From the NCBI RefSeq assembly GCF_006539925.1, contig NZ_BJNY01000017.1, forward strand, positions 1 to 64,000: DNA of 64,000 bases. Direction: 5' to 3'. Below, piece after piece: positions 4,138 to 63,285 of this stretch (within the stretch, counting starts at the first letter, position 1; each line of letters starts with the position of its first letter). Both the position numbers and the translations under genes were made by a program. The stretch is from Glutamicibacter uratoxydans (lineage in GTDB: Bacteria > Actinomycetota > Actinomycetes > Actinomycetales > Micrococcaceae). The notes under the pieces are model-generated. The model worked only from the letters and a program-made list of their open reading frames with translations. It ran no database searches and was not told the origin of the DNA.

Positions 4138-4169
4138 ATTCCATTTTTAGAAGTTGTTTCTTCTGCGTA

Positions 4170-7673: not shown

Positions 7674-7695
7674 CTTTTGTTCTAGACTTTTTTCT

Positions 7696-8127: not shown

Positions 8128-8130
8128 AAC

Positions 8131-8178: not shown

Positions 8179-8182
8179 TTTT

Positions 8183-10138: not shown

Positions 10139-10212
10139 ATTTTGATCCTAACCAGCTTTGTCTTGGCTTTCGACCCTCGACAAGCGCAAACTCGATGGGA
10201 TTGGATTATTCC

Positions 10213-10752: not shown

Positions 10753-10818
10753 GCTGGTTCGCACGGCATAATAAATCGTTGCTTTGTTCGCCGTTGAACT
10801 TTGACTGAGAGCCCGTAG

Positions 10819-11481
10819 ATGCTGACCATCGTTGAACTTGTTGGTATTTTTTTCTTTGCCGTATCCGGTTCGCTGATGGCCGCCCGTCGAGGATTCGACA
10901 TGCTGGGTTCTGCGTTCCTCGGCGGAGTCTGCGGTCTTGGCGGCGGTGTAGTCCGAGATTTGATTCTGAACCAGTCTCCGGCAACCTTTCTGCACCCCAT
11001 CTATTTCGCCCCGCCCATCCTGGCGGCCCTGTGCGTCTACGCGTTTACCCCAGCAGTGCAGAAGCTTCACCGTCTGGTGCTCATCTTTGACGCCGCGGGC
11101 CTCGGATTGTTCTGTATGACCGGAACCATGAAGGCCCTGGAAAATGACTTCAACCCGGTCTCTTCGGTGCTGTTGGGTGTCATCACCGGCGTAGGCGGTG
11201 GCATGATGCGAGATGTCATTGCCAATGTGACCCCAGATCTGTTCAACCCGAGGGATATCTACGCCATCCCCGCCATCCTTGGCGCCACCGCCACGGCCTT
11301 CGCCTGGAACCTGGGCATCCTGAATCTTGCGGTGGGCATCTGCATTGCGGCACTGACCTTCGTACTGCGGCTCTCATCCATCCGCTTCGGGTGGAGCGTC
11401 CCCATGGCGGCGGGCCACTGGCACCGGGAGAACCCGCCAAGCCCTCCGGCCAATGACGGGCCCCGCCGGCACTTCCTCTAA
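10819..11481 (+). CDS. TRIC-type cation channel / YicG-like membrane protein
   Basis: The 220-residue membrane protein shows two homologous halves of three hydrophobic helices each, with GFDMLGSAFLGGVCGLGGGV and VSSVLLGVITGVGGGMMRDV as the matching glycine-rich motifs, each followed by R-D. This is the prokaryotic TRIC (UPF0126/YicG) pattern, a homotrimeric K+-permeable channel family. A seventh helix follows, and the C-terminal 35 residues form a hydrophilic Pro-rich tail. The physiological role in bacteria is unsettled. Confidence 0.9.
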   Translation: MLTIVELVGIFFFAVSGSLMAARRGFDMLGSAFLGGVCGLGGGVVRDLILNQSPATFLHPIYFAPPILAALCVYAFTPAVQKLHRLVLIFDAAGLGLFCMTGTMKALENDFNPVSSVLLGVITGVGGGMMRDVIANVTPDLFNPRDIYAIPAILGATATAFAWNLGILNLAVGICIAALTFVLRLSSIRFGWSVPMAAGHWHRENPPSPPANDGPRRHFL

Positions 11482-11488
11482 GCTTCCG

Positions 11489-12745
11489 CTAGTTGATCCG
11501 CTCCAGCTTGCCTGCGTCCTCGGCTCCCGGAGCCGTATCTTCAATGGTGCGAGGAGGATTGATGATCACCGCGCCAATGAGCATGACCACCACACAGATG
11601 CCGAGCATGGAGAAGGCGACTCCCCACGAGTCGGTGGCTTTCTGCACCACGCCAAAGAGCATCGGGACAATGCCGGCGCCGGCGTAGCCCAGGCCCTGTG
11701 CGAAGCCTGAAAGCACGCCCGAACCATAGGTGGTGCGCGAACGCAGGTTCATCATCAGCAGCGCAATGGCGAAGGTTCCCTGTCCCAGTCCTGCCATGGC
11801 CACCCAGAAGGCGGTGCCGTTGGTTGGGGACAGGTAGATGCCCAGGTGTCCGGTGACCCAGAAGACGGTGAAAACCAGCACTGCAATGATCGGGTTCTTC
11901 AGCCGCGGCACCCACAGGGGCACCAACAACGAGACCGGCAGGCCCAGAATTGCGAACAAGGCCAGCATGTTGCCGGAGGTCAGCTCGTCCAGGCCGCGGG
12001 CCTGCAGGTAGGGCGGAAGCCACGTGAAGTACACGTAGGTCTGCGCCGAGTTGCCAGCCAGGAAGATGGCAAGGCCCCAGGCAACCTTCGACTTCCACGG
12101 GTTGATCTTCACTAGCGGGTGGGCGGCGCCCGCCGCGTTCAGCGGCTGGTCTGGCCGGTCCACGTTTCGGTCAGCGATCAGCTGCAGCAGCCACGGGATC
12201 AGCACAATGGTGGAAAGCACCGCCCAGGAGCCGATGGAGATTTGCCAGTCGGTGGCGTTGGCCAGTGGCACCGAGAACTGCGGCGCCATCCAGGTGCCGA
12301 TAGCCAGCATGGTGACATAGCCGCTGGTGACAGTTCCGATGCGGTCGGGGAAATATTTCTTCACCAAAGGAGGCAGCACCACGTTGCCTACGCCGTAGCC
12401 GGCCAGGGCAACGATTGACATTCCGAGGAATGAATAGACTTCCGGCATGAAGATGCGGGCCACCTGGCCCACAATTGCCAGAGCTATGGAAAGCATCAGT
12501 GTGCGTTCAAGCCCGAAGCCGCGGATCAGCCGCGGGGTGAGCAGCCCGAAGACCGCGAAGACAATCGGTGCGAGCGTTGCCAGAAGGCCAATGGTGAATT
12601 CAGTGAACTGGATATCGTTTTGGATTCTCGCCAGCAGGGGCGGCACGGAAACCACCGCCGCGCGCAGCGATAATGCCAACAGCAAAATGCCGAGAAGTGC
12701 CCCCACTCTTCCCTTCATTGAAGTTTTCGGGCTGGTACTCGACAT
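11489..12745 (-). CDS. MFS transporter, CynX/NimT type
   Basis: This 418-residue protein has about twelve hydrophobic segments and the layout of the CynX/NimT branch of the major facilitator superfamily (SLRAAVVSVPPLLARIQNDI, GFGLERTLMLSIALAIVGQV, GSGVLSGFAQGLGYAGAG). CynX relatives are associated with cyanate and nitroimidazole or other small-molecule transport, but the substrate here cannot be read from sequence. It starts 18 bp after the TetR gene stop with a GAGG ribosome site, so both form an operon controlled by the TetR protein. Confidence 0.87.
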   Translation of the reverse strand: MSSTSPKTSMKGRVGALLGILLLALSLRAAVVSVPPLLARIQNDIQFTEFTIGLLATLAPIVFAVFGLLTPRLIRGFGLERTLMLSIALAIVGQVARIFMPEVYSFLGMSIVALAGYGVGNVVLPPLVKKYFPDRIGTVTSGYVTMLAIGTWMAPQFSVPLANATDWQISIGSWAVLSTIVLIPWLLQLIADRNVDRPDQPLNAAGAAHPLVKINPWKSKVAWGLAIFLAGNSAQTYVYFTWLPPYLQARGLDELTSGNMLALFAILGLPVSLLVPLWVPRLKNPIIAVLVFTVFWVTGHLGIYLSPTNGTAFWVAMAGLGQGTFAIALLMMNLRSRTTYGSGVLSGFAQGLGYAGAGIVPMLFGVVQKATDSWGVAFSMLGICVVVMLIGAVIINPPRTIEDTAPGAEDAGKLERIN

Positions 12746-12763
12746 GGACTATTACCTCAAAGA

Positions 12764-13318
12764 CTATTGGTTGCGATGACCCAACTTTTTTAGTTGCGGG
12801 ACTAACTCTAGTAAGTGGGAGAGGTTACCTTCAAAGTTTCGCTGGTACCAGGTCCCCGGGGTCCCGGTAAATGCGTAGAGCCCTTCGGAGATCAGCATGA
12901 TCAGGTGGGCAATATCCTTGTCCCCCACCTCTTCCATGAGCGCTTCCAGCCAGCGAGAGGAAATGCTCTCCAATTGGGTGTTGGCCGATTCCACGCCTGA
13001 CTGCGCCAGCCGCTGCAACGCGAGCAGCAGACGGTCCAGCTCGGTATCCACCTGGGCGCTGGTGCGGATGAAATAGGAAGCGGCGCCCTCTTCCGCGGTA
13101 TTCATATCCTGCAGGTCCAACAGGATCAGCTCCTCGCTCAGCGCTACCACCGCTTCAGCCAGGGCTTCCTTGGAGGCAAAGTGGTAGAGCAGGCCGCCCT
13201 TGGAAACACCGGCCTTCGCGGCGGTGGCTTCCATGGTTGCAGCACGCTCGCCTTCTTCACACAACAGTGAAATATAGGCGTCTAAAACCTTGGTGCGTGC
13301 TGCAGGGGGCCGTGCCAT
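12764..13318 (-). CDS. TetR family transcriptional regulator
   Basis: The product of about 184 residues has an N-terminal TetR helix-turn-helix (AATMEATAAKAGVSKGGLLY HFASKEALAE) and a helical C-terminal ligand domain. Start choice: MARPPAARTKVLDAYISLL at 13318 places the first helix normally; a longer reading to 13372 would run to within 9 bp of the operator. The gene is divergent from a DHA2 transporter, with a 28-bp palindrome in between, and is followed by a CynX-type transporter. It most likely represses itself and both transporters until a small effector binds. Confidence 0.9.
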   Translation of the reverse strand: MARPPAARTKVLDAYISLLCEEGERAATMEATAAKAGVSKGGLLYHFASKEALAEAVVALSEELILLDLQDMNTAEEGAASYFIRTSAQVDTELDRLLLALQRLAQSGVESANTQLESISSRWLEALMEEVGDKDIAHLIMLISEGLYAFTGTPGTWYQRNFEGNLSHLLELVPQLKKLGHRNQ

Positions 13319-13378
13319 TGAGCTCCATTCGGGGATCGAAAGTCCATTAGTGATGAGTACAACCATACCCAAAGATTG

Positions 13379-13406
13379 TAACTATACCGTCTGGACGGTA
13401 TAGTTA
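13379..13406. promoter_or_regulatory. 28-bp palindromic operator for the TetR regulator
   Basis: The perfect palindrome has the half-site TAACTATACCGTCT and lies 61 bp before the TetR start and 55 bp before the DHA2 transporter start. Symmetry, size and position between the divergent genes are those of a TetR-family operator. TATACCGTCTGGACGGTATA at the centre resembles QacR/TetR-like sites of TATAC...GTATA form. Confidence 0.88.
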
Positions 13407-13460
13407 TTTTTTGTCCCGGTCACTACTGGGCCCAAAACACTGAAAAACAGGATGATATTC

Positions 13461-14978
13461 ATGAGCTCACTACTCACCGACCAGACATCAACGCTGTCCA
13501 AGCCGCGACGTTGGGCGGCACTTGTTGTGCTCCTTTTCCCGGTACTGCTCATTTCCGTAGACAACACGGTGCTCACCTTTGCCGTGCCCGCAATTGCCGA
13601 GGCGCTGGCACCCACTGGAACCCAGCAGCTGTGGATCATTGACATCTACCCGCTGATCCTCGCCGGCCTGCTTGTTCCCTTCGGCTCGCTGGGCGACCGC
13701 ATCGGACGCCGCCGCCTGCTGCTGATCGGCGCTTCCGGCTTCGCCGCGGTTTCCGCCTTTGCTTCCTTTGCCACCGACCCCAACCAGCTGATCGCCTCGC
13801 GCGCGCTGCTCGGCCTCTTCGGCGCCATGCTGATGCCTGCCACCCTGTCGCTGATCCGCAATATCTTCATTGACGACACCGAGCGCCGCACTGCCATCGC
13901 CATCTGGGCCGCCGCTTTCTCGGGCGGCGCAGTGCTCGGCCCGCTGGTGGGCGGCGTGCTGCTCAACCACTTCTGGTGGGGCTCGGTCTTCCTGCTCGCA
14001 GTGCCCATGCTGCTGCCCCTGCTGATCGGCGGACTGGTCCTGGTTCCAGAATCCAAGGACCCGAATCCCGGCAAGGTTGACCCGATCTCCATTGCCCTGA
14101 TCGTGCTGACCCTGCTGCCCTTCACCTTTGCCATCAAGTCCTTCTCCACCGCGCCGTGGTACCTGCTCATTGTCGCCCTGGTGGTTTCGGTCATCAGCGG
14201 CATCAGCTTTGTGCGCCGCCAGCTGGGCACCAAGATCCCCATGATCGACGTGCGCCTGTTCAGCAACGCCATGTTCTCCGGCTCGCTGCTGGTGAACCTG
14301 ATCGGCATCTTCTCGCTGATCGGCTTCATCTACTTCGTTTCCCAGCACCTGCAGCTCATTGCCGGCTACACCCCGCTGCAGGCTGGCCTGCTGATGACTC
14401 CTGGCATGATCCTCTCCATGGCCTTCGGCCTGCTGGCGGTGGGACTGTCCAAGAAGTTCGGTTCGCCCAATGTGATGATGGCAGGCCTGCTGTTCTCGGC
14501 ACTTGCCTACACGCTGGTCATCATTGCCGGAAACAACCCGAGCATTGCGCTACTGATGATTGCCTTCTGCGTGTTGGGCACCGGCATCGGCATGACCGAG
14601 ACCCTGTCCAATGACATGGCTCTGTCCGCAGTTCCCGCCTCCAAGGCTGGCGCCGCCTCCGCAATCTCCGAAACCGCCTATGAGGTAGGCACAGTTCTGG
14701 GCACCGCGGTATTGGGCACCATCCTGAACACCGTCTACAGTGCCAAGCTCATGACTCCGGAAACACTGTCCGCAGCTTCGGCGGCCCAGGCCTCCGAGAC
14801 TTTGGGCGGCGCGCACCAGGTGGCCGCTACCCTGGATCCAGCTTCCGCGGCGGCGCTGCTGCAGTCAGCCGCAGAGGCCTTTGACCACGGTGTCATGTAC
14901 ACGGCGGCCATTGCCGCAGTGCTGTCAATCGTGGCGGCAATTGTTGTCGCCAAGGTCATCAAACCAGCGGCCCGGTAA
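13461..14978 (+). CDS. MFS drug-efflux transporter, DHA2 (EmrB/QacA) type
   Basis: The 505-residue protein has fourteen predicted hydrophobic segments and DHA2 motifs: VDNTVLTFAVPAIAEAL (motif D1-like), GSLGDRIGRRRLLLIGA (motif A) and GGAVLGPLVGGVLL (motif C, drug:H+ antiporters). It is likely to expel hydrophobic cations or drugs using the proton gradient. I chose the ATG at 13461 because AGGA at 13449 is then 8 bp away; the ATG at 13452 is too close. The TetR gene is divergent and the operator sits between them. Confidence 0.92.
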   Translation: MSSLLTDQTSTLSKPRRWAALVVLLFPVLLISVDNTVLTFAVPAIAEALAPTGTQQLWIIDIYPLILAGLLVPFGSLGDRIGRRRLLLIGASGFAAVSAFASFATDPNQLIASRALLGLFGAMLMPATLSLIRNIFIDDTERRTAIAIWAAAFSGGAVLGPLVGGVLLNHFWWGSVFLLAVPMLLPLLIGGLVLVPESKDPNPGKVDPISIALIVLTLLPFTFAIKSFSTAPWYLLIVALVVSVISGISFVRRQLGTKIPMIDVRLFSNAMFSGSLLVNLIGIFSLIGFIYFVSQHLQLIAGYTPLQAGLLMTPGMILSMAFGLLAVGLSKKFGSPNVMMAGLLFSALAYTLVIIAGNNPSIALLMIAFCVLGTGIGMTETLSNDMALSAVPASKAGAASAISETAYEVGTVLGTAVLGTILNTVYSAKLMTPETLSAASAAQASETLGGAHQVAATLDPASAAALLQSAAEAFDHGVMYTAAIAAVLSIVAAIVVAKVIKPAAR

Positions 14979-15272
14979 ACATTACGAATCAATATCTCAA
15001 ATTTTTGATTATTTGAGCTCAGGTTATTCAAATGTGGCTTGTGACCACGTAGGCTAGGCTGTGTAGTTCCAAAGTAATTCGCGAAGTACCCTTTAGAAGT
15101 TTGTGAATGTCGGACCATCTCGGTTGGCGCGATCCCTTCTAGACGTGAAGTGAAGTACTTGGCTGCTTCGCAGGATCAATCGATGGCAACATCATCGTTC
15201 CTGCGTAGATTACAACCAAGATCGCCTCATCAATTAGTCGGCGAGAAACGTCTGAAAGGACCAAATAAGAAT
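14979..15272 (+). promoter_or_regulatory. cold-shock gene upstream and leader region
   Basis: No gene is seen in this 294-bp stretch. CspA-family genes in other bacteria have long 5' leaders that change fold with temperature, and the space here would allow one. Direct sequence support is limited to its length and position; I could not assign the promoter exactly. Confidence 0.35.
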
Positions 15273-15476
15273 ATGGCAACCGGAATCGTCAAGTGGTTTA
15301 ACGCTGAAAAGGGCTTCGGCTTCATTGCTCCAGACAGCGGCGATCCAGACGTGTTCGCACACTTCACCGCTATCCAGACCCAGGGCTTCCGCACCCTGGA
15401 CGAGGGCCAGAAGGTTGAGTTCGAAGTAGTTGAGGGTCCAAAGGGTCTGCAGGCTGCAGACATCCGCGCTCTCTAA
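15273..15476 (+). CDS. cspA: cold-shock protein, CspA family
   Basis: The 67-residue protein is a single cold-shock domain with RNP1 KGFGFI and RNP2 DVFAHF, plus the opening [15 protein letters not shown]. Such proteins bind single-stranded RNA and DNA and melt structure in mRNA at low temperature. GAAAGGA lies 7 bp before the ATG. The gene has almost 300 bp of upstream sequence with no other gene and its own strong terminator, so it is monocistronic with a probable long leader. Confidence 0.96.
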
Positions 15477-15512
15477 TCGAAGGTCTTTAGCACTAACGCC
15501 TGACTTTTAACC

Positions 15513-15556
15513 GCTGTGGGCGGCTATCCATTTCGGATAGCCGCCCACAGCTTTTT
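15513..15556 (+). terminator. terminator after the cold-shock gene
   Basis: A perfect 17-bp GC-rich stem (15513-15529 with 15535-15551) with a 5-base loop is followed by TTTTT, 36 bp after the stop codon. Confidence 0.93.
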
Positions 15557-15617
15557 AATCACATGATTATTTGCGCATGCAAGGAATAGAACCCCAATTG
15601 CCCCAGTTGAAAATAGT

Positions 15618-16604
15618 GTGAAGCTATCAATTCTGGACCTCGCCCCGGTCTCCCCCGGAGGCTCAATTGCAGACTCATTCAAATCCTCGGTCAGGCTGGC
15701 GCAGACCGCTGAACGAAATGGCTACGAGCGTGTGTGGTATGCAGAGCACCACAACATGCCAACCATCGCTTCCAGCGCCACCTCGATTCTGATCAGCCAC
15801 ATCGCCCACCACACCGAGCGCATCCGCTTGGGCTCCGGCGGGGTCATGCTGCCCAACCACTCCCCCTTGGTGATCGCCGAACAGTTCGGCACCCTGGCCG
15901 AGATCTTCGGAGACCGCATCGACTTGGGCCTGGGCCGCGCACCCGGCACCGACATGAACACGTTGCGCGCTCTGCGCCGCGACCCCTCGGCTGCGGATAC
16001 CTTCCCGCACGACGTACTTGAGCTGCAGGCCTATCTGGCAGGAAAGTCACGCATCCCCACCGTGCAAGCCATCCCGGGCTCTGGCACCCATGTGCCGCTG
16101 TACATCTTGGGCTCTTCGCTGTTCGGCGCCAAACTGGCCGCCCAGCTGGGCCTACCATATTCCTTCGCCTCGCACTTCGCCCCGGCCGCCCTGCATCAGG
16201 CGGTCCAGCTGTACCGCGAGGAATTCACTCCTTCGGAGCAACTGGCCGAGCCCTATGTCATTGCCGGGGTCGGCGTGGCCGCAGCTGAAACCAGCGAGCG
16301 GGCCCACGAGCTGTTCGAGGCCGCCCGCCGCCACCGCGTGGCAAGCTTCCTGGGCCGCGGCGCCGACAAGACATTCACCGAGGCAGAGGTGGACATGCTC
16401 ATGGACACCCCTCAGGCGGCCCAGATCCTGGACATGATGCGCTACACCGCGGTGGGCACCGGCGAACAGGTGGCAGACTACCTTGAGCGCTTTGCCCAGA
16501 CCTCGCAGGCTGATGAGCTAATTACCGTGCATTACCCCACCGATGACCAAACCCGTCTTGATTCGGTGATCATCACCGCCCAGGCCGCAGGACTGAACGC
16601 CTAG
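15618..16604 (+). CDS. LLM-class flavin-dependent oxidoreductase
   Basis: The 328-residue protein has a luciferase-like (TIM-barrel) fold, MsnO8-type: [71 protein letters not shown]. Members use reduced flavin, FMNH2 or F420, to oxidise organic substrates; the natural substrate here is unknown. The start is GTG at 15618, directly before the conserved first strand. It stands alone between two terminators. Confidence 0.92.
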
Positions 16605-16651
16605 GTTCGAAAGCCCAACTTCGGTTTTGTTGACCGGAACTCATACAGAGC

Positions 16652-16694
16652 AATCCACCCCAGATGTTCCTTGAAGAACATTCTGGGGTGGATT
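16652..16694. terminator. bidirectional terminator hairpin
   Basis: Inverted arms 16652-16669 and 16676-16694 pair with one single-base bulge between convergent genes (oxidoreductase and MFS transporter). Short T-rich sequence (TTTCTTGATTGCTTTT) follows on the plus strand. Confidence 0.75.
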
Positions 16695-50396: not shown

Positions 50397-50410
50397 GCGC
50401 TTCAACGCTA

Positions 50411-50466
50411 AACGCCAAGGGCTGCGGACCTCCCTTCGGGGAAGTCCGCAGCCCTTGGCGTTTTAT
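50411..50466. terminator. bidirectional terminator hairpin
   Basis: A perfect 19-bp stem (50411-50429 with 50444-50462) with a 14-base loop is followed by TTTTA. It lies between convergent serine-hydrolase and decarboxylase genes. Confidence 0.9.
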
Positions 50467-53886: not shown

Positions 53887-55107
53887 ATGAGTTCTGCTGC
53901 AGGCAAATTGACGACCGAATTGACCGAGGAACAACGGGCGGTCATGCACGAGATGTACAAGCATCTTCATGCGCACCCCGAGCTGTCGATGCAGGAGCAT
54001 CAGACCGCCTCCTACATTGCCGAACAGCTCGACGCATTGGGCATCGAGAACTTCATCTGCGCAGGCACCGGCGTGGTCGGAATCCAGCGCAACGGCGAGG
54101 GTCCGGTGGTCGGCTTCCGCGCCGACACCGACGGGCTGCCCATCCATGAAGACACCGACGCCGACTATGCGTCCACCGCGCGTGGCACCCTGGCCGACGG
54201 CAGCGATGTGCCGGTCATGCACGGCTGCGGGCACGACACCCATATCACCGCCGCGCTGACGGCAGCGGCCCGGCTGGCCGAACAGACCGATGCTTGGCAG
54301 GGCACCGTCGTCTGGATCTTCCAGCCAGGCGAAGAGACCGCAGCCGGGGCCAAGGCAATGCTTGAGGACGGATTGTGGGAGAAAGCCCCACGCCCGGACA
54401 TTATCTTGGGCCAGCACGTCTTCCCCTTTGCCGCAGGATCCATCGCGCTGACCGGCGGTCCGTCGATGACCATGGCGGACTCGCTCAAAGTGACATTGAA
54501 GGGACGGCAGGCCCACGGGTCCCAGCCGCAGGAGTCCATCGATCCCATTGTTCTGGGTTCCTACATCATCACCCGGCTGCAGACCCTGGTGTCCAGCGAA
54601 CTGAACCCGCAGCAGTCGGCGGTGATCACCTGCGGCACCTTCCATGCCGGGCTGAAGGAAAACATCATCCCGGACAAGGCCGAGTTCACGTTGAACGTGC
54701 GCACCTTCTCGGAAAAGGTGCGCACCCAAGTACTGGGCGGCATCAACCGCATCATCAACGCCGAGGCAATGGCCTCCAATGCGCCGCAGCCCCAGATTGA
54801 AATGTTCAATTCCTTCCCGAAGCTGCACAACGATCTGGAACACACGGAGATTGTGCGCAAGGTGCTCAAATCGGAGCTGGGCGACGACAAGGTGGTCCAG
54901 ATGCCTCCGGCAATGGGCTCCGAGGACTTCGGTGCGCTGGGCGACAGCATCGATGTGCCCTACGCGTATTGGTTCTTCGGAGGCTTCGTCCCCCGGGAAT
55001 CAACGCCGCCAAGCAACCATTCCCCGCACTTCCTGCCCGACTACGAGCCTGCACTGGATACCGGAGTTAGAGCTGTGCTTGCCACCTTGGGGCATTACCT
55101 GCGCTGA
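53887..55107 (+). CDS. M20 family amidohydrolase (first copy)
   Basis: The 406-residue metal hydrolase belongs to the M20D family (hippurate, N-acyl-amino-acid and IAA-amino-acid hydrolases). Metal-ligand motifs are ADTDGLPIHEDT, HGCGHDTHI and FQPGEETAAGA; the dimerisation lid lies in the middle (QAHGSQPQESIDPIVLG), followed by CGTFHAGLKENIIPDKAEF and MGSEDFGALG. It splits an amide bond of an N-acylated substrate in the cytosol. It is very close to the copy at 62000-63220. Its ribosome site is ACGGAGGG, and it converges with the Lrp gene. Confidence 0.93.
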   Translation: MSSAAGKLTTELTEEQRAVMHEMYKHLHAHPELSMQEHQTASYIAEQLDALGIENFICAGTGVVGIQRNGEGPVVGFRADTDGLPIHEDTDADYASTARGTLADGSDVPVMHGCGHDTHITAALTAAARLAEQTDAWQGTVVWIFQPGEETAAGAKAMLEDGLWEKAPRPDIILGQHVFPFAAGSIALTGGPSMTMADSLKVTLKGRQAHGSQPQESIDPIVLGSYIITRLQTLVSSELNPQQSAVITCGTFHAGLKENIIPDKAEFTLNVRTFSEKVRTQVLGGINRIINAEAMASNAPQPQIEMFNSFPKLHNDLEHTEIVRKVLKSELGDDKVVQMPPAMGSEDFGALGDSIDVPYAYWFFGGFVPRESTPPSNHSPHFLPDYEPALDTGVRAVLATLGHYLR

Positions 55108-55123
55108 GCTCGCCGTGCTGGGT

Positions 55124-56068
55124 TCAGATGGCCAGAAGCTTGCCGCCACGCTTGCGGGCCTGGACGACCAGGGAGGTCTTGACCTGCAGCATGGCGTCTC
55201 CCCAAGCGCTGTCGGAGATGAATTTATACAGCTCCGCCTGATTCGCTACAGTCACGTCGACCACCAGCTGGCAATCGCCTGCCACCGCCGCCGCATAGCG
55301 GACTTCGGGGCGCGCCGCGAGCCGCTGGCCCAAAGGTTCAATCTGGCTCGGCGTGGTGGAGACCCACAGCAGGGCTTCCACCGGAAGCCCCACCGCTGCG
55401 GGCTCGACTAGTGCCCTGATCGAAATCTGTCCGCTGTGCAGCAGCCAGTCGATGCGCCTTGCCACCGAGGTTTCGCTCATCGCCACTCGGCGCGCCACCG
55501 ATTCTATGCTTGCCCGGCCGTCCTCCTTCAGCGCGGCGATGATCTGCTCGTCTTTGCTGCTCAGATCCGGTACGGCCTTCCAGGACGTGCGGTCGGGGTC
55601 CTTGCGCAGCGCCTGTTCTTCGGCGGCGTTCAGGGAACCCAAACGCCAGCCGCGGATGGTTTTGAAGTATTTGAGTATCGGGTAGACCACCATCGCGGAG
55701 ACCCCCGGCGTAGCAGGCAGCTGCAGCGAGAGCACATCGGTGGCATCTCCGGTGTAGTGCAGTTCAACGATCAGGTCCTCCCTGCCGGTGACCTGATAGG
55801 AGAAGCTGGTGTCCTCCCGCGCCGACAGGGCTTCGCTGGCGATCCTCCCGGTCCCCGGAGCGCAGGAGCAGGCAACCAACATTGAATGCTCGCGGTGCCT
55901 GATGGCGGCGACCGTCACCAGCCCGTTCTCCAAAAGCCAAGCTCCATGGCGGGCCACCGAACGTTCGGGCATATCCAGCACCGCGGCGATCTTGCGCCAG
56001 GTGGCGCGTCCGTCCACCTGCAGCGCCGCAATGATCCGCCGCTGGGCATCGCCCAGTTCCTTCTCCAC
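55124..56068 (-). CDS. two-HTH Lrp/AsnC regulator
   Basis: The 314-residue regulator is two Lrp/AsnC units in tandem. The first HTH is ELGDAQRRIIAALQVDGRAT with MPERSVARHGAWLL; the second is DEQIIAALKEDGRASIESVA with MSETSVARRIDWLL. Each is followed by an AsnC-type ligand domain (FSYQVTGREDLIVELHYTGD; VRYAAAVAGDCQLVVDVTVA). Standard Lrp proteins have one unit of about 150 residues. Its GTG start has AAAGGAG upstream and lies 29 bp after the carboxyltransferase stop, so it is the last gene of the amidase operon and probably controls it. Confidence 0.9.
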   Translation of the reverse strand: MEKELGDAQRRIIAALQVDGRATWRKIAAVLDMPERSVARHGAWLLENGLVTVAAIRHREHSMLVACSCAPGTGRIASEALSAREDTSFSYQVTGREDLIVELHYTGDATDVLSLQLPATPGVSAMVVYPILKYFKTIRGWRLGSLNAAEEQALRKDPDRTSWKAVPDLSSKDEQIIAALKEDGRASIESVARRVAMSETSVARRIDWLLHSGQISIRALVEPAAVGLPVEALLWVSTTPSQIEPLGQRLAARPEVRYAAAVAGDCQLVVDVTVANQAELYKFISDSAWGDAMLQVKTSLVVQARKRGGKLLAI

Positions 56069-56097
56069 GTCCCGCCAGCTCCTTTGCTTTCCCTCTG

Positions 56098-57633
56098 CTA
56101 CTCCTGCGGCGCCAGACTCCGCTGCGCTGCCGCCAGGTAGCGCTCATTGCGCACAGCGCGCAGCGCGCCGCGTTCACGCTGGGCCAATTCCTGCAGCGCA
56201 CCGCCCAGCACCTGGCCGACCTCCTGCGAGAATCTCCGGGGCGCCGTGCTCACATCGTACTCTTCGGGCACGATCACCTGGACAATCCCCTCGCGCCGCA
56301 GCGAAAAGGCATCGGTAAGCTGCGCGTGCGCGAGCATCGGCGCATGCTCGGTGTCCCGATACATGATGGCGCTGGCCCCTTCGGGAGGCAGCGGGGACAG
56401 CCAGGAATTGGCGGCGGCAATTGTGATGTCCGCTGGCAGCAGCGCCAGCGCCCCGCCCCCGGTGCCCTGGCCAAGCAGCAACGAGACGCTGGGGACGTTC
56501 AGCCCCACCAGCGCATCGATACAGCGAGCAATCTGCCCGGCCATGCCGCCTTCCTCAGCCTTCTGGCTCAGTGCCGCACCCTCCGTGTCGATCACCGTCA
56601 CCAGGGCGATCCCCAGATGCTGCGCCAGCTGGGCGCCGCGCCGCGCCTCGCGCAGGAAGGCAGGGCCCATCGGCTCGGCGGTGCGCGCGTCATCTGCCCT
56701 GCTCCGGTCCTGGCCGACGATCACCGCAGGCTGTCCGGCGAAGCGGGCCAGCGCCAGGTACATCCGCGGGTCGTTCTCCCCTTCGCTGGTTCCCGAGAGC
56801 TGCAGTGCATCGCTGGCTGCATATTTGACCACGTGGCGCACCGATGGCCTGCGCGGCTTGCGCGTTGCTTCAATGGCAGCCCAGACTTCCTCTTGGCTGA
56901 GCACCCTGTCCGCCACCTGCGGATAGGAAGGCGCACTTGAATCGACTTGCCCCGGGGCAAGGATTCTCAGCGCCCGGGTGACGATCTGCGCCAGCTGCTC
57001 CAGCGGCACCACCGCGTCGATGATTCCGTGCTGCTGCAAGTTCTCCGACACCTGCACGCCAGGCGGGAAGGGTTCGTGGTAGATGGTTTCATAGACCCGA
57101 GGCCCCAAAAAGCCCAACAGCGCTCCGGGCTGGGCGATGGTGATATGCCCCAGCGAGCCCCAGGAGGCCATGACTCCGCCGGTGGTCGGGTGGCGCAGGT
57201 AGACCAGATAGGGCAGCGAAGCCTCGGTATGGGCGCGCACCGCTGCGGTGATGTGCACCATGGACACGAAGGCAGGGGTGCCCTCCTGCATGCGGGTGCC
57301 TCCGGAGGCCGGCGATGCCAGCACCGGCAGCCGCGCGGCGGTGGCGCGCTGGAAGGCGGCGATGATCCGGCCGGCCGTCGCCTTGCCGATGGAACCTGCC
57401 AGGAAATCGAATTCGGAGATCACCACCGCCACGTCTTGGCCGTTGATGCTTCCCTGCCCGGTGATCACCGCTTCGTCGCAGGCGCTGCGCGCCGCGGCGC
57501 GCTCAAGCTGCCCCCGGTACTCCTGGTCGGCAAAGCCGTAGTCCACCGGCGTATCCCAGCTGACGAAGCTGCCAGGATCCAGCACCGTCTCGATCATGGC
57601 CCGGGCGCTGATGCGTTCTGTCTGCTGGCTCAT
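56098..57633 (-). CDS. fused AccD/AccA-type acyl-CoA carboxyltransferase
   Basis: The 511-residue protein joins an AccD-like N-terminal half (FVSWDTPVDYGFADQEYRG, VVISEFDFLAGSIGKATAGR, VLASPASGGTRMQEG, GHITIAQPGALLGFLGPRVY) to an AccA-like C-terminal half (VTVIDTEGAALSQKAEEGGM, LLLGQGTGGGALALLPADI, WLSPLPPEGASAIMY). No zinc-finger Cys residues are seen at the N-terminus, unlike E. coli AccD. It could carboxylate, transcarboxylate or decarboxylate a CoA ester; no biotin carboxylase or carrier gene is in the cluster. ATGA overlap couples it to the CoA-transferase gene. The malonate-decarboxylase beta/gamma subunits have the same ancestry. Confidence 0.9.
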   Translation of the reverse strand: MSQQTERISARAMIETVLDPGSFVSWDTPVDYGFADQEYRGQLERAAARSACDEAVITGQGSINGQDVAVVISEFDFLAGSIGKATAGRIIAAFQRATAARLPVLASPASGGTRMQEGTPAFVSMVHITAAVRAHTEASLPYLVYLRHPTTGGVMASWGSLGHITIAQPGALLGFLGPRVYETIYHEPFPPGVQVSENLQQHGIIDAVVPLEQLAQIVTRALRILAPGQVDSSAPSYPQVADRVLSQEEVWAAIEATRKPRRPSVRHVVKYAASDALQLSGTSEGENDPRMYLALARFAGQPAVIVGQDRSRADDARTAEPMGPAFLREARRGAQLAQHLGIALVTVIDTEGAALSQKAEEGGMAGQIARCIDALVGLNVPSVSLLLGQGTGGGALALLPADITIAAANSWLSPLPPEGASAIMYRDTEHAPMLAHAQLTDAFSLRREGIVQVIVPEEYDVSTAPRRFSQEVGQVLGGALQELAQRERGALRAVRNERYLAAAQRSLAPQE

Positions 57634-58820
57634 GACCTGCCCGCCTCCATGGGGCTGAGCTGGCCAAGCCATGCGCGGATCTCCGCCTCGTCCTGGTTCA
57701 ACAGCGGCGGGGCAGCATGGTCGGTGCGGGTCACTTCCTGCTGCCGGTCGAAGAAGCGCAGCGGTGCTCCGGGCAGGGTGATTTCGCCGAGCAGCGGATG
57801 CCGCACCTGCATGGCCAGATGCTGGGAATGCACCTGCTCCCACTGGTACACCTCGTCCATGGTGCGCACGATGCCTGCAGGGATCCCCGCCTGGCCCAGC
57901 TGTTCCAGCAGCGCGGTGGTGGGCAGCTGGGTGAACTTCTCCTCGATGACGGCGATGAGCTCATCGCGGCGCTGCACTCGCTGTTCGTTGGTTTCATAGC
58001 CGGCGGTGGGCAGCTCGAACTTTTCAACCAGCGCCTCCCACAGCTTGGGGCTGCCGACGCTGATCTGCACGAACCCGTCGGCGCTGCGGAACAGGCCGTA
58101 GGGGGCGATGGACGGGTGGTGGTTGCCCTGGGCATGCGGGACTTCGGACGCAATGGTCTGCCGGGTGCCCTGGAAGGCGTGAACGCCGACGATCGCGGCG
58201 AGCAGCGAGGTGCGCACATGCTGTCCGCGCCCGGTGTGCCCGCGTTCCAGCAGCGCAGCCAGCACGCCGTAGGCACCGTACATTCCAGCCAGCAGGTCCC
58301 CGATGGGCACGCCCACCTTCTGGGGGTCATCTGGCCCGGACCCTGTCAGGGACATCAGGCCCGCCTCGCCCTGCAGGATCTGGTCGTAGCCGCTGCGCCA
58401 GGCTTCCGGCCCGTCGTGGCCGAAGCCAGAGATGGACAGCACCACCAGCGCCGGATTCAGCTGCTGCAGCCGTGCTTCGTCGAAGCCCAGCCGGTCAAGG
58501 ACCCCGGGGCGGAAGTTCTCCACCAGCACGTCGGCCTTTTCAAGCATGGCTGCCAGCGTGGCCGCCCCGTCCTCGCTTTTCAGGTCCAGCGCGATGGACT
58601 GCTTGTTGCGGTTGCAGGAGAGGAAGTAGGTGGACTGGCGGTCGTCCTCCGGGCCGACGAAGGGCGGCCCCCAGCCTCGGGTGTCATCTCCCCCGTTGAC
58701 GTTCTCCACCTTGATGACCCGGGCCCCGAGGTCCGCGAGCATCATGGTTGCATGCGGGCCAGCCAGGGCCCGCGAGAGGTCGATAACTGTATAGCCGGTC
58801 AATGGTCCTGCAGTGCTCAT
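57630..58820 (-). CDS. CaiB/BaiF family CoA-transferase (family III)
   Basis: The 396-residue enzyme has the family III opening GYTVIDLSRALAGPHATMML ADLGARVIKVENVNGGDDTR, the catalytic Asp in a YDQILQGEAGLMSLTGSG stretch and LLAGMYGAYGVLAALLERG. It moves CoA between a donor thioester and a carboxylic acid. Placed between an amidase and a carboxyltransferase, it would activate the acid released by the amidase. ATG at 58820; the amidase stop is 16 bp upstream, and its end overlaps the next gene. Confidence 0.93.
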   Translation of the reverse strand: MSTAGPLTGYTVIDLSRALAGPHATMMLADLGARVIKVENVNGGDDTRGWGPPFVGPEDDRQSTYFLSCNRNKQSIALDLKSEDGAATLAAMLEKADVLVENFRPGVLDRLGFDEARLQQLNPALVVLSISGFGHDGPEAWRSGYDQILQGEAGLMSLTGSGPDDPQKVGVPIGDLLAGMYGAYGVLAALLERGHTGRGQHVRTSLLAAIVGVHAFQGTRQTIASEVPHAQGNHHPSIAPYGLFRSADGFVQISVGSPKLWEALVEKFELPTAGYETNEQRVQRRDELIAVIEEKFTQLPTTALLEQLGQAGIPAGIVRTMDEVYQWEQVHSQHLAMQVRHPLLGEITLPGAPLRFFDRQQEVTRTDHAAPPLLNQDEAEIRAWLGQLSPMEAGRS

Positions 58821-58836
58821 GGGTTGTGTTTCCTTC

Positions 58837-60291
58837 CTAGGCGCTGACGGTCTGGATGCGGGTGGATGCCACCGAGGCGGGGTCAATGGCCAGCTGCGGG
58901 GCGGTGGCGGCGAAGTTGGTTAGCTGCTCGTAACCGGCGGCCCAGTTCAGCAGCGCGGCGTCCTGGTAGTGGTTGGCTGCCAGCTGCCAGCCCACCGGCA
59001 GCCCGGAGGCGGTGAAGCCGGCGGGCATGGCGATCACCGGCAGGCTGGCGGCCGAGAGCAGGCAGGCCGAACGCATCCAGTCCAGATAGGTTTCGGCCCG
59101 CGTGCCTGCAATGTCTTCCGGCCAACGCCAGGAGGCGTCGAAGGGCAGCACCTGGGCGGCCGGGGAAAGGAAGATGTCATAGCGCGAATAGAAGTCCTGC
59201 ACCGCGCGCTGAAGCCGGGTGCGGGCCGCCATGGTTGAAATCATGGCGGCTCCATCCAGGTCCAGACCCTTCTTCACATTCCAGCGGACCTCCGGCTTGA
59301 TCAGCTCGCCCTTGGCCTCGACCAGGGCGCCGAGATTGGTGGCGAAGTCGAAGGCGCGCACATTGCCGAAGACCTCGTCGGCCTCGCGGAAGTCGATGCT
59401 CGCCTCTTCGAGGATCGCCCCGGCGGCCTCGAAGACCGCCAGCTGGCCGCGCAGCACCTCGATGACTTCCTGTTCCACCGGGACCCCGATGCCGAAGTCG
59501 AAGCTGTAGCCGATGCGCACGCCCTTCAGGTTTGGCGCGAGCTGGGCGAAGTCCTGGCCGCGCAACGTATTGGGGGTCGGCAGCTGTGCGTCCCCGGCGC
59601 TGGCCTGCATGAACAGCGAGATATCCTCCACGCTGCGGGCCATCGGGCCCGAACGCGCAAGCCAGGAGTAGGCGTTCGAGGGAGCTTCCAGCGGGATCAC
59701 GCCATAGGACGGGCGGAAGCCGATGACATTGCAGAAGCTTGCGGGGATGCGCAGGCTGCCGCCCATGTCCGAGCCGTCGCCCAGCGGCTGGATGCGTGCG
59801 GCGATGGCTGCCGCGACGCCGCCCGAGGAGCCGCCGGCCGAACGGTCGGTGGCATAAGGGTTGGTGGTGGTGCCGAAGACTTCGTTGAAGGTGTGGGAAC
59901 CGGCCCCGAATTCGGGCACATTGGTCTTGCCGGTCCGAATGGCCCCGGCCGCCGTCAGACGGGCAATCTGCAAATCGTCGTGCTCCGGGACATTGTGCTC
60001 CAGCGCCAGCGAACCCTGGGTGGAACGCAGGCCTGCGGTGTTGAAGGTGTCCTTGTGGGTCATCGGCAGCCCGTGCAGCAGGCCGGTGGCCTCGCCCCGA
60101 GCGCTGGCCTCGTCGGCCGCCGCCGCGAGCTGCTGGGCCCGCTCGAAATCGGTGGTCACCACAGCGTTGATCGCGCCGTTGACCTCTTCGATGGCGTTGA
60201 TGTGGCTGGCGAGGGCTTCGCGGGCCGAGATTTCTCGGCTGCGGATCTTGCCGGTGAGCTGTACTGCTGACAGCTGCTGGATCTCGTTCAT
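58837..60291 (-). CDS. amidase (amidase-signature family)
   Basis: The 484-residue amidase has the Lys-Ser-Ser catalytic triad layout: Lys in GLPMTHKDTFNTAG, cis-Ser in DRSAGGSSGGVAAAIAAR, nucleophile Ser in GDGSDMGGSLRIPA. It hydrolyses an amide R-CO-NH2 or R-CO-NHR to the acid. The start at 60291 (MNEIQQLSAVQLTGKIRSRE) follows AAGG-type sequence and matches family N-termini; a reading to 60378 adds unrelated residues. It is the first gene of the minus-strand operon, divergent from the DUF5058-type transporter. Confidence 0.92.
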   Translation of the reverse strand: MNEIQQLSAVQLTGKIRSREISAREALASHINAIEEVNGAINAVVTTDFERAQQLAAAADEASARGEATGLLHGLPMTHKDTFNTAGLRSTQGSLALEHNVPEHDDLQIARLTAAGAIRTGKTNVPEFGAGSHTFNEVFGTTTNPYATDRSAGGSSGGVAAAIAARIQPLGDGSDMGGSLRIPASFCNVIGFRPSYGVIPLEAPSNAYSWLARSGPMARSVEDISLFMQASAGDAQLPTPNTLRGQDFAQLAPNLKGVRIGYSFDFGIGVPVEQEVIEVLRGQLAVFEAAGAILEEASIDFREADEVFGNVRAFDFATNLGALVEAKGELIKPEVRWNVKKGLDLDGAAMISTMAARTRLQRAVQDFYSRYDIFLSPAAQVLPFDASWRWPEDIAGTRAETYLDWMRSACLLSAASLPVIAMPAGFTASGLPVGWQLAANHYQDAALLNWAAGYEQLTNFAATAPQLAIDPASVASTRIQTVSA

Positions 60292-60392
60292 GACTGGCCT
60301 TTCGGGAAGTGGCTGCGAGCTTTGCCACAATCTTCGGCTTACGCTGGCGACATTCGGAATAGGGTGGGCGCAAATCATGCGTTTTGGAGGAT

Positions 60393-60412
60393 TTGGCCAC
60401 TTTTATGGCCAA
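60393..60412. promoter_or_regulatory. inverted repeat between divergent amidase and transporter operons
   Basis: TTGGCCA at 60393-60399 and TGGCCAA at 60406-60412 form a perfect 7-bp inverted repeat with a 6-base spacer. It lies 102 bp before the amidase and 95 bp before the membrane-protein gene, so it may bind the two-HTH Lrp regulator at 55124-56068. Confidence 0.65.
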
Positions 60413-60506
60413 TTCCCCCATTCCTTGCCTAGCCTCTCGACCCGATGGAACCTTGAATCCATGAGACACGCATCACAGTGATGATGTGACAGCTAAGGAG
60501 AGTTCG

Positions 60507-61247
60507 ATGTACCTACCACTGGCCGCGGCGGACCCGGCATCAACTGATATCTGGGCAGTAGCAAACTCGCCGTTCTTATGGTTCTGCGCACTGGGCGTCT
60601 TCGCAGTGATCTTCGTCCAGACCTTCCTCTACAGCCGGGCCGCGAAGGCGGCAGCCCCGCACGTCGACATGCCACTGCGCGAAGTCAAGGAGGCCTTCCG
60701 CGCAGGCGCCGTCGCTTCCATCGGTCCGTCGCTCTCGGTGGTCTTGGTAGCCATCGCGTTGCTGGCGCTGTTCGGAACCCCCGCAGTGCTGGTGCGCATT
60801 GGCCTGATCGGCTCGGCGGCCACCGAAACCGCCAGCGCGAACCTAGCGGCCCAGTCCATGGGCTCGATGCTCGGCGGCGACAGCTACACCCAGCAGGTCT
60901 TCGCCGTGGCGTTCATGGCCATGAGCCTGTCCGGCGGCATGTGGATGCTGTGCACCCTGCTGCTCACCCCGGTGCTCAAGCGCGGCAGCAAGTCGCTGGC
61001 CAAGCGCAACCCGGCGGCCATGGCGCTGATCCCCACCGCGGCCCTACTCGGCGCATTCAGCATGCTGACCATTGCCGAAATCCCCAAGTCGAACATCCAC
61101 ATGATGCTGGTGCTGATCTCCGCAGCCTCCATGGCGTTCTTCCTCTTCCTGGCCAAGGTGCTAGGCGCCAAATGGCTCAAGGAATGGGCCCTTGGCTTCG
61201 CCATCCTCATCGCCATCACCGCCGGCTATTTCATGCACACCGCCTAG
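60507..61247 (+). CDS. DUF5058-type membrane protein
   Basis: The 246-residue protein has about six hydrophobic segments (FLWFCALGVFAVIFVQTFLY, VASIGPSLSVVLVAIALLAL, FAVAFMAMSLSGGMWMLCTL, MMLVLISAASMAFFLFLAKV). It resembles DUF5058 family proteins, which lack a known function. The ATG at 60507 has AAGGAGA 6 bp upstream. It is the first gene of an operon with a second membrane protein and an M20 hydrolase, so the pair is likely to take up the hydrolase substrate; that role is inferred. Confidence 0.8.
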   Translation: MYLPLAAADPASTDIWAVANSPFLWFCALGVFAVIFVQTFLYSRAAKAAAPHVDMPLREVKEAFRAGAVASIGPSLSVVLVAIALLALFGTPAVLVRIGLIGSAATETASANLAAQSMGSMLGGDSYTQQVFAVAFMAMSLSGGMWMLCTLLLTPVLKRGSKSLAKRNPAAMALIPTAALLGAFSMLTIAEIPKSNIHMMLVLISAASMAFFLFLAKVLGAKWLKEWALGFAILIAITAGYFMHTA

Positions 61248-61269
61248 GGCATAGAAAAGGACAATTCTC

Positions 61270-61989
61270 ATGAGCACCCAAACCCTCACCAGCGCCGATG
61301 CGTCAATGGCGCGCTTCGACAAGCAGACCACCCGCTATGGATCGATCACCATGACACTCGGCCTGATCTTCTCGCTGCTCGGCCCGATCTACTTGGTGTT
61401 CTTCTCCGGCCTTGAGATCACCCCGACCATGATCGGGGTCGCCTTCGCCGCGGTGGCCGCCACCTTCGGCGTCTTCTGGATCGTCGAACCGCTGACCTAC
61501 TTCCCCATCCTGGGTTCGGCGGCCATGTACCAGGCATTCATGATTGGCAACATCTCTAACAAGCTGCTGCCAGCGGCCATTGTTGCCCAGTCCTCGATCA
61601 ACGCCAAGCCGGGCACCCGCCGCGGAGATCTGGCCAGTGTCATGGCCATCTGCGGAGCCGCCACCGTGCACCTGACAAGCCTGCTGATCTTCGTCGGCCT
61701 GCTCGGCTCATGGCTGGTGTCGATCGTGCCCATTGAGGTGATCGAAGTGGCGCGCATCTACATCCTGCCTTCGCTGATGGGAGCCGTGCTGGTCCAGGCC
61801 ATCGTCGCAATGAAGCAGCTTCGCCCTACCATCGTGGCCATCACGCTCTCGCTGCTGATGTATTTTGTGGTCATCCCGCTGGTTCCTTCCCTCGCACTGT
61901 TCGGCACCGCACTGGTGGTGCTCTTCTCCATCGTCCTTTCCTGGATTGTCCGCGACCGCAAAGCAGTCCATACCACCGAAGAAGCCTAG
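61270..61989 (+). CDS. membrane protein paired with the DUF5058-type protein
   Basis: The 239-residue protein has six to seven hydrophobic segments (GSITMTLGLIFSLLGPIYLV, MIGVAFAAVAATFGVFWIVE, LGSAAMYQAFMIGNISNKLL, VHLTSLLIFVGLLGSWLVSI, IYILPSLMGAVLVQAIVAM, VVIPLVPSLALFGTALVVLF). I do not recognise a family. AAAGGA precedes the ATG. It lies 22 bp after the DUF5058-type gene and 10 bp before the M20 gene, so all three are one operon. A two-subunit secondary transporter is the simplest reading. Confidence 0.75.
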   Translation: MSTQTLTSADASMARFDKQTTRYGSITMTLGLIFSLLGPIYLVFFSGLEITPTMIGVAFAAVAATFGVFWIVEPLTYFPILGSAAMYQAFMIGNISNKLLPAAIVAQSSINAKPGTRRGDLASVMAICGAATVHLTSLLIFVGLLGSWLVSIVPIEVIEVARIYILPSLMGAVLVQAIVAMKQLRPTIVAITLSLLMYFVVIPLVPSLALFGTALVVLFSIVLSWIVRDRKAVHTTEEA

Positions 61990-61999
61990 GGAGTCAAAG

Positions 62000-63220
62000 T
62001 TGAGCACCGAATCAGCACGCCTGAAAACCACCCTCGACGAGGAACAGGCTCAAATCATGCACCAGATGTACAAGCACCTTCATGCGCATCCAGAACTGTC
62101 CATGCAGGAACACCAGACTGCCGCCTATATCCAGGGCAAGCTGGATGAACTGGGCATCGAGAACTTCATCTGCGGCGGCACCGGAGTGGTGGGCATCCAG
62201 CGCAACGGCGAAGGAGCAGTCATTGGCTTCCGCGCAGACACCGACGGGCTTCCCATCGCCGAGGACACCGGAGCTGGGTACGCCTCCACCGCCCGAGGCA
62301 CACTGGCCGACGGTACCGAAGTTCCGGTCATGCACGGCTGCGGGCACGACACCCACGTCACCGCAGCGCTGACCGCGGCCGCAAGGCTTGCCGAACAAAC
62401 CGACGCATGGCAGGGCACCATTGTCTGGCTCTTCCAGCCAGGCGAGGAAACCGCCGCTGGAGCCAAGGCGATGCTTGCCGACGGCCTGTGGGACAAGGCT
62501 CCGCGCCCGGACATCATCCTGGGCCAGCATGTCTTTCCCTTCGCGGCAGGCTCCATCGGACTGACCCCGGGAGCCGCCATGGCCATGGCCGATTCCTTCA
62601 AGATCATCCTGAAGGGCAAGCAGTCCCACGGCTCCCAGCCGCAGGATTCCATCGACCCGATTGTGCTCGGCGCGCACACCATCGCACGGCTGCAGACCCT
62701 GGTCTCCCGTGAGCTGGCTCCGCAATCCCCCGCTGTGGTTACCTGTGGTTCTTTCCATGCGGGCCTGAAGGAAAACATCATCCCCGACAAGGCCGAATTC
62801 ACCCTGAACGTGCGCACCTTCACCGAGGATGTCCGCACCCATGTGTTGGACGGCATCGACCGCATCGTCAATGCCGAGGCCATGGCGTCCAATGCGCCGA
62901 AGCCCCAGATCGAAATCTTCAACTCCTTCCCGAAGCTTCACAACGACCCGGAGCAAACTGAGATAGTGCACCGGGTTCTGGCCAATGAATTAGGCGAGGA
63001 CAAGGTGGTGGAAATCCCTCCTGCCATGGGTTCAGAAGACTTCGGCGCCCTGGGCGATGCCATCGGCGTCCCGTACGTGTACTGGTTCTTCGGCGGCTTC
63101 ATCCCGGGCGACGCTCCTGCACCGGTCAACCACTCCCCGCACTTCCTGCCCGACTACGAGCTATCGCTGGCCACCGGCGTTCGCGCCGCGCTAGCGGGTC
63201 TAGGCCACTACCTGCGCTGA
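62000..63220 (+). CDS. M20 family amidohydrolase (second copy)
   Basis: The 406-residue hydrolase has the same motifs as the copy at 53887: ADTDGLPIAEDT, HGCGHDTHV, FQPGEETAAGA and MGSEDFGALG. I count 14 differences over 99 aligned residues from the HEMYKHLH segment to HGCGHDTH. The start is TTG at 62000, with AGGGAG upstream; both copies are then exactly 406 residues. A longer reading to 61865 overlaps the preceding gene and is rejected. It is the last gene of the transporter operon, so substrate uptake and hydrolysis are made together. Confidence 0.93.
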   Translation: MSTESARLKTTLDEEQAQIMHQMYKHLHAHPELSMQEHQTAAYIQGKLDELGIENFICGGTGVVGIQRNGEGAVIGFRADTDGLPIAEDTGAGYASTARGTLADGTEVPVMHGCGHDTHVTAALTAAARLAEQTDAWQGTIVWLFQPGEETAAGAKAMLADGLWDKAPRPDIILGQHVFPFAAGSIGLTPGAAMAMADSFKIILKGKQSHGSQPQDSIDPIVLGAHTIARLQTLVSRELAPQSPAVVTCGSFHAGLKENIIPDKAEFTLNVRTFTEDVRTHVLDGIDRIVNAEAMASNAPKPQIEIFNSFPKLHNDPEQTEIVHRVLANELGEDKVVEIPPAMGSEDFGALGDAIGVPYVYWFFGGFIPGDAPAPVNHSPHFLPDYELSLATGVRAALAGLGHYLR

Positions 63221-63238: not shown

Positions 63239-63285
63239 AGGGGCTTGGAATGAACGAAGATTCTGTTCATTCCGAGCCTCTTTTT
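63239..63285. terminator. terminator after the second M20 gene
   Basis: Inverted arms 63239-63255 and 63265-63281 pair over 17 positions with one G-C to G-T type mismatch region, followed by TTTTT. It separates the M20 operon from the convergent ABC-F gene. Confidence 0.85.

Follow-up and report, generated by a model that had tools for sequence, protein, structure and literature searches.

A DUF5058 membrane-protein pair and M20 amidohydrolases in Glutamicibacter uratoxydans: a possible import-and-hydrolysis locus for amide-bonded carboxylic acids

We analysed a 64,000-nt window (the whole stretch of DNA under study) of contig NZ_BJNY01000017.1 from the soil bacterium Glutamicibacter uratoxydans (GCF_006539925.1), with 53887–63220 as the region of interest. 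We found that a DUF5058 membrane protein, a partner membrane protein that we call MemB and an M20 amidohydrolase form a conserved unit, to which an AsnC-type regulator, an amidase and a CoA-transferase/AccDA pair are added in part of the genomes. We tentatively read the whole as an import-and-hydrolyse locus for amide-bonded carboxylic acids, with malonate as the acid most likely released. An earlier note on this DNA had already proposed an amide-bonded substrate, which we count as supported; malonate on the acyl side, suggested by the gene neighbourhood, was not considered there. The note had also described two 406-codon M20 genes with four minus-strand genes and then two plus-strand membrane-protein genes between them, and both the reading frames and this order were confirmed. 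The genes are as follows.

53887..55107, plus strand: M20 copy A, ATG start, 406 codons; PF01546, PF07687 and TIGR01891 over cut-off
55124..56068, minus strand: double AsnC/Lrp-type regulator, 314 residues; HTH_AsnC-type and AsnC_trans_reg over cut-off
56098..57633, minus strand: AccDA, AccD-like and AccA-like halves fused, 511 residues; PF01039 181 bits, PF03255 145 bits
57630..58820, minus strand: type III (CaiB/BaiF) CoA-transferase, 396 residues; PF02515 383 bits; four-base overlap with the AccDA gene
58837..60291, minus strand: amidase-signature enzyme, 484 residues; PF01425 318 bits; THKD, GGSSGG and GSDMGGS stretches in the translation, which we take to be the Lys and Ser-Ser motifs
60486..61247, plus strand: DUF5058 membrane protein, 253 residues from GTG; PF16481 219.5 bits against a gathering cut-off of 28.2
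61270..61989, plus strand: MemB, partner membrane protein, 239 residues; without known family
62000..63220, plus strand: M20 copy B, TTG start, 406 codons, third gene of the transporter operon; PF01546, PF07687 and TIGR01891

The conserved membrane pair and its M20 hydrolase

The genus sample, with one genome per species, comprised 18 genomes including the genome of origin; 16 had an M20 match at E 1e-100, 15 of them relatives, and all 15 held the main locus, viewed as 20-kb regions. Comparison of gene order with these relatives, a check that the earlier note had suggested, revealed DUF5058, MemB and M20 in one order in all 15 loci, with an amidase in five and a CoA-transferase plus AccDA in three. 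A scan with a MemB alignment gave 279 relatives, and the best 80 of these 279 made up a wider set of loci, of which 70 had complete flanks (at least 6.5 kb to the left and 4.5 kb to the right of MemB). These 70 loci are related by descent, and the co-occurrence counts are not independent. M20 was present in 63, AsnC in 42, amidase in 35, CoA-transferase in 16 and AccDA in 16, and either M20 or the amidase stood beside the DUF5058/MemB pair in all 70. AsnC was present in 34 of the 35 amidase loci. AccDA and the CoA-transferase occurred together in 16 loci, 15 of which contained the amidase; the remaining one (L072) extends into another module of its contig, and that module has an amidase. Among the nameable gene families common to at least five of the 80 loci (crude gene calls, named by reading) we found no biotin carboxylase. 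DUF5058 itself is patchy, occurring in 16 of 198 genomes of the order (15 over cut-off) and in four of 396 genomes of the phylum (three over cut-off), with the genome of origin counted each time.

Several loci show individual variations. In another Glutamicibacter genome (G011, L034), two DUF5058–MemB–M20 modules lie about 10 kb apart (1108–4956 and 8560–16683), and the amidase, CoA-transferase and AccDA accompany solely the second. The DUF5058 and MemB frames are broken in L044 (G014, 8457–9908), and in L039 (G001, 6488–8865) the AsnC gene is split into pieces that lie about 1.5 kb apart. One Leucobacter locus (L078) is preceded by a gamma-glutamyltranspeptidase family gene (2180–3724; PF01019, 358 bits).

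Pfam recognises the membrane pair only through the DUF5058 model, and neither protein matches a known transporter family, AbgT included. MemB had no Pfam or NCBIfam match at E 0.001 and no solved relative was found for it; in the literature searched we found no paper mentioning DUF5058. From its gene neighbourhood, the pair is best read as a two-protein importer of amide-bonded acids, which DUF5058 and MemB would form jointly. AbgT takes up p-aminobenzoyl-glutamate, which AbgA and AbgB cleave. That system likewise sets an importer beside an M20D hydrolase, and AbgB-type 3io1 is a remote relative of A and B (60 and 69 bits); by contrast, the membrane part here is two small proteins. By analogy, the pair and the cytosolic hydrolases are best read as working like AbgT with AbgAB.

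Consistent with M20D amidohydrolases, copies A and B scored 274.7 and 274.2 bits against TIGR01891 (curated cut-off 153.75). The nearest solved relative was 6slf (292 and 295 bits for A and B; the next structure, 171 and 176), to which A is identical at 155 of 382 aligned residues. The 6slf enzyme, N-AGA, splits N-acyl-glutamine with a loose acyl choice, and the contacts named in its description include Asp301 and Asn191, which bind the glutamine side chain (PMC7209930). In 6slf numbering, the two-zinc site (Cys, His, Glu, His, His) is kept in A, B and all 78 DUF5058-linked M20 proteins, as are Glu140, Asp340 and the alpha-carboxylate contacts Arg264 and Asn251 in the 78 rows. All of these are also kept in both distant paralogues of the genome of origin, and they therefore mark M20D in general. 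The side-chain pocket differs from that of N-AGA. Position 301 in the 78 linked proteins is Tyr (46), Ser (23), Asn (6, including A and B) or Thr (3) and never Asp, whereas Asp301 occurs in six of ten rows of an N-AGA/Corynebacterium set; position 191 is Ser in 71, including A and B, and Ala in seven. The acyl-pocket positions 335, 185, 186 and 354 of A and B also differ from 6slf. Because these pocket residues differ, N-acyl-glutamine is disfavoured as the substrate, and the conserved contacts point to N-acyl amino acids whose alpha-carboxylate is free, probably with a side chain other than that of glutamine. No basic residue separated the 18 AccDA-linked from the 29 M20-only rows; Lys257 is kept in both groups and is Ser in eight of ten rows on the N-AGA side.

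We also considered DUF5058/MemB as the importer for N-AGA, a body-odour enzyme whose importer is called unknown in PMC7209930 and PMC12609316. This candidate was not supported: in a sample of 151 genomes from the genus to which a Corynebacterium metagenome-assembled genome belongs (itself included), N-AGA-like matches (E 1e-70) occurred in all 151 and DUF5058 in two. With the best N-AGA-like match at just 62% identity, this sample may lack the odour enzyme proper. Nor did we find support for DUF5058 and MemB as homologous halves (hhalign probability 0.4%). Beside DUF5058, seven of the 80 loci gave no Rfam match over gathering scores that would indicate a riboswitch, and at eight plasmid loci the single Rfam match was an unrelated small RNA.

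The pair extends beyond the Actinomycetota. Twelve plasmid records matched DUF5058, and ten were opened. DUF5058, one more gene and an M20/amidohydrolase stand consecutively in each of six haloarchaeal records; glycine-cleavage genes lie at most 9 kb away in five of these and not in the Halalkalicoccus record. In Paracoccus, M20 lies upstream of the pair. The Vibrio pair stands among transposases without M20, its DUF5058 containing one stop; Paenarthrobacter pADNL2 carries DUF5058 and a partner with in-frame stops; and the stretch in an Arthrobacter plasmid record carries no annotation. In all eight records tested (five haloarchaea, Paracoccus, Vibrio and pADNL2), the gene that comes after DUF5058 was recognised by the MemB profile, at 91–178 bits. 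The haloarchaeal M20 pocket has Gly301 and Arg191 in five of five proteins and that of Paracoccus has Asp301 and Phe191, which indicates that the partners are M20 proteins of broadly this type and do not form a single orthologous group. Four of the six haloarchaeal records (L186, L189, L190 and L236) also have an annotated TRIC cation channel family protein in the vicinity of DUF5058.

These records bear on a possible, though doubtful, alternative: general N-acyl amino acid scavenging, in which the pair imports, M20 frees the amino acid, and the amidase, CoA-transferase and AccDA form an acid pathway of their own that has just the locus and the regulator in common with it. The haloarchaeal triads beside glycine-cleavage genes fit this explanation, as if glycine were released, as does the loose acyl choice attributed to the nearest solved relative in PMC7209930. 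M20 also occurs without amidase, CoA-transferase or AccDA in 34 of the 70 complete loci (27 without AsnC and seven with it). However, in loci of Leucobacter and Paenarthrobacter, co-oriented CoA-transferase and AccDA genes come after M20, as in one operon, and seven complete loci have the pair and the amidase without M20, one of them (L113) with the CoA-transferase/AccDA pair.

The acid released

Under the import-and-hydrolyse reading, cytosolic two-zinc M20 enzymes would cut N-acyl amino acids, that is, amides with a free alpha-carboxylate, as their kept residues suggest, and the amidase would cut other amides of the same acid. The CoA-transferase would turn malonate into malonyl-CoA, and AccDA would turn malonyl-CoA into acetyl-CoA, either via biotin or by direct decarboxylation. 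The neighbourhood of the CoA-transferase/AccDA pair in other genomes points to malonate as the most likely acid, because the pair adjoins MatC carriers there. AccDA-like matches at E 1e-60 were present in 66 of 297 genomes of the order. We fetched ten of these regions and found a CoA-transferase 63–71% identical to that of the window adjoining AccDA in nine, and a MatC carrier in five (MatC_N, 173–210 bits). In the order as a whole, AccDA lay at most 6 kb away from 15 of the 22 strongest MatC matches (at least 177 bits) and from none of the 25 that rank next; chance would give 0.17 for all 47 matches compared. One DUF5058 locus (L086) contains MatC, CoA-transferase, AccDA, AsnC, amidase, DUF5058, MemB and M20 together, with MatC_N confirmed. 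It holds the close MatC match among the 80 DUF5058 loci, and relatives 35–42% identical occur in L107, L116, L128 and L129.

In three of these loci (L107, 11052–13697; L116, 11052–14511; L129, 11029–14472), the MatC relative, 35–37% identical to the MatC of L086, lies about 1 kb behind DUF5058–MemB–M20 and is followed by a CoA-transferase 39–40% identical to that of the window; in L116 and L129 an enoyl-CoA hydratase-like frame (by reading) comes next. Among the AccDA regions, one (L225, G159, 4460–8072) has the CoA-transferase/AccDA pair between hisG-like and hisF-like frames, identified by eye.

MatABC is a malonate use system. MatC-type carriers adjoin the same CoA-transferase/AccDA pair in other genomes; in the window, by contrast, the CoA-transferase replaces the synthetase of MatABC or the acyl-carrier system of the Mdc malonate decarboxylase. 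The Mdc system is described in PMC5534430, and AccDA is only weakly like its MdcD and MdcE. AccDA scored 46 and 48 bits against the malonate decarboxylase beta models (cut-offs 278 and 228) and 20.9 bits against the gamma model (cut-off 237), and thus does not classify as MdcD or MdcE. Higher scores came from the NCBIfam models of AccD (169 bits) and AccA (142 bits), both below those models' cut-offs, and mmdA gave 70 bits. In PMC5534430, different ligands are given as the reason why MdcE only weakly resembles the carboxyltransferase alpha subunit; the AccA-like half of AccDA is well kept, an indication that this protein still interacts with biotin. The genome of origin has four biotin-carboxylase-type genes at other places. 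A PF05292 search of this genome gave no match, but its control matched nowhere either, so that the result carries no weight. Additionally, malonamidase E2 (PDB 1ock and others) is also an amidase-signature enzyme, and malonate release from an amide is what we propose here; it scored at most 69 bits to the window amidase, compared with 188 for the best solved match, a GatA.

Several observations weigh against a malonate-releasing import locus. M20 occurs without the CoA-transferase/AccDA pair in 48 of the 63 M20 loci, and the acid therefore need not be malonate for M20; the glycine-cleavage neighbours in five of six haloarchaeal records say nothing of malonate. MatC accompanied AccDA in just half of the ten fetched regions, seven of the 22 strong MatC matches were not near AccDA, and no MatC (PF07158) match was found in the genome of origin at E 0.001. 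AccDA, being nearer to AccD and AccA, may be a carboxyltransferase that depends on biotin and can run either way. The CoA-transferase has its nearest relatives among succinate-glutarate, formyl/oxalate and hydroxymethylglutarate enzymes, its best NCBIfam model being succinate-glutarate CoA-transferase (301 bits against a cut-off of 750). For the membrane pair, single-chain structure models of DUF5058 and MemB were poor (mean pLDDT 66.6 and 58.9) and matched no solved fold at E 0.001.

The affinities of the CoA-transferase, in both its models and its solved relatives, are consistent with the same import-and-hydrolyse locus acting on another dicarboxylate, such as succinate, glutarate, oxalate or a substituted malonate, and MatC_N is itself named as a dicarboxylate carrier. 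We consider this improbable; AccDA lies nearer to acetyl-CoA/malonyl-CoA carboxyltransferase (the AccD and AccA models) than to methylmalonyl-CoA decarboxylase (mmdA). It appears highly unlikely that the locus serves a ureido or hydantoin pathway, importing amides of cyclic or ureido type from which the amidase would release the acid: hydantoinase-like and carbamoylase-like frames (by reading) precede DUF5058–MemB–M20–amidase in Arthrobacter sp. APC 3897 (L121, 2966–7228), but in that locus alone, and no such family was among those common to at least five of the 80 loci.

A wider proposal, which we regard as rather unlikely in its entirety, builds on the malonate reading. DUF5058 and MemB would be a heteromeric transporter of an undescribed family, conserved in organisms as distant as actinobacteria and haloarchaea, and would supply M20D hydrolases with N-acyl amino acids; in Glutamicibacter and its relatives it would serve a malonyl-amide route, for example from plant N-malonyl amino acids, with malonate used via the CoA-transferase and the fused AccDA. 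Plants make N-malonyl conjugates such as malonyl-ACC, according to PMC4227472. Combined literature searches on malonate returned no paper, and in the literature searched we found no described pathway with this exact set, in agreement with the earlier note.

The second M20 copy and control of the locus

Copies A and B had been described as near-identical, which overstates their similarity. They are identical at 322 of 406 residues (80%) and at 940 of 1,221 bases, stop included, with 84, 91 and 57% identity at codon positions 1, 2 and 3. A reported count of 14 differences in a 99-residue N-terminal block holds for 99-residue windows starting after residues 20 to 45, whereas the first 99 residues differ at 24. 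Identical DNA around the HGCGHDTH motif was confirmed, the longest identical run being 32 bases and spanning the motif. A search of the genome of origin with A found B at E 6e-225 and, next, an M20 that is 34% identical (E 7e-47). The similarity of A and B is far above chance, and they are paralogues. With dN of 0.129 and dS of 1.11 (NG86), both copies look kept by selection and their split not very recent.

A 90-row M20 tree placed A and B as sisters (support 100/95) within a six-row Glutamicibacter clade (100/100); this tree carries a long-branch warning for the N-AGA side rows and the two distant paralogues. A 23-row tree without those rows recovered the Glutamicibacter clade at 100/100 and the sister pair at 83/78, and A and B are thus probably sisters. 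Copy A was not found in the locus regions of any of the 15 relatives that have the locus, and no M20 was found between the OKR-type decarboxylase and AsnC genes in the ten relatives where both genes were found. The position of B, by contrast, is occupied by an M20 in all 15 loci, which makes A the extra copy. Bracketing of the island by two M20 genes therefore exists here and is not the rule in relatives. The trees and the absence of A from relatives support duplication of A in its own lineage, as the earlier note had proposed for a local event; the outcome that it had named as refuting, placement in different clades, did not occur. We rejected independent acquisition of the two M20 genes, since both trees place them in one six-row clade at 100/100.

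The layout bears out the placement of B in the transporter operon and of A alone outside it. Two candidate control elements were found in the window.

60388..60417, no strand assigned: candidate operator, dyad TTGGCCA-N6-TGGCCAA, between the divergent amidase and DUF5058 genes
63239..63281, plus strand: candidate terminator of the DUF5058 operon, an 18-pair hairpin followed by T-rich DNA; the longest of eight terminator-like sites, with 7.4 expected in shuffles

A similar dyad was present in seven of 20 upstream regions of relatives, in weaker form in two, and a stricter dyad pattern containing a misplaced T gave no match. We built an operator matrix from six relatives' sites (a near-duplicate was dropped); it scored 39.7 at 60388 and 13.4 at the next place in the window. 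The double AsnC-type protein would control both divergent operons through this conserved dyad. Upstream of A the relatives' matrix found no site (best score 0.8), and we rejected the same operator there, although an 11-base piece recurs: the 11-mer GCCACTTTTAT occurs in the window solely at 53691 and 60396 (0.01 expected), having been chosen after both places were seen. On the two regulatory states that the earlier note had proposed, the observations are divided: the matrix scores make separate control of A likely, but the 11-mer recurs upstream of it. As a second copy, A now lies outside the operon and without the dyad.

Elsewhere in the window, an inverted repeat at 50410–50463 (25-base arms, 96% complementary, 4 bases apart) lies between convergent serine-hydrolase-like and OKR decarboxylase genes and looks like a two-way terminator. 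An Rfam scan of the window gave no match above gathering score.

Possible significance of the locus

The M20 duplication alone is ordinary. If the import-and-hydrolyse reading is correct, an uncharacterised membrane pair spread over two domains of life would gain a concrete, testable job in supplying M20D enzymes with imported amide-bonded acids. The CoA-transferase/AccDA pair of many Micrococcales genomes would likewise gain a proposed role in malonate use. A bacterial route using plant N-malonyl conjugates would bear on the fate of these compounds in soil.

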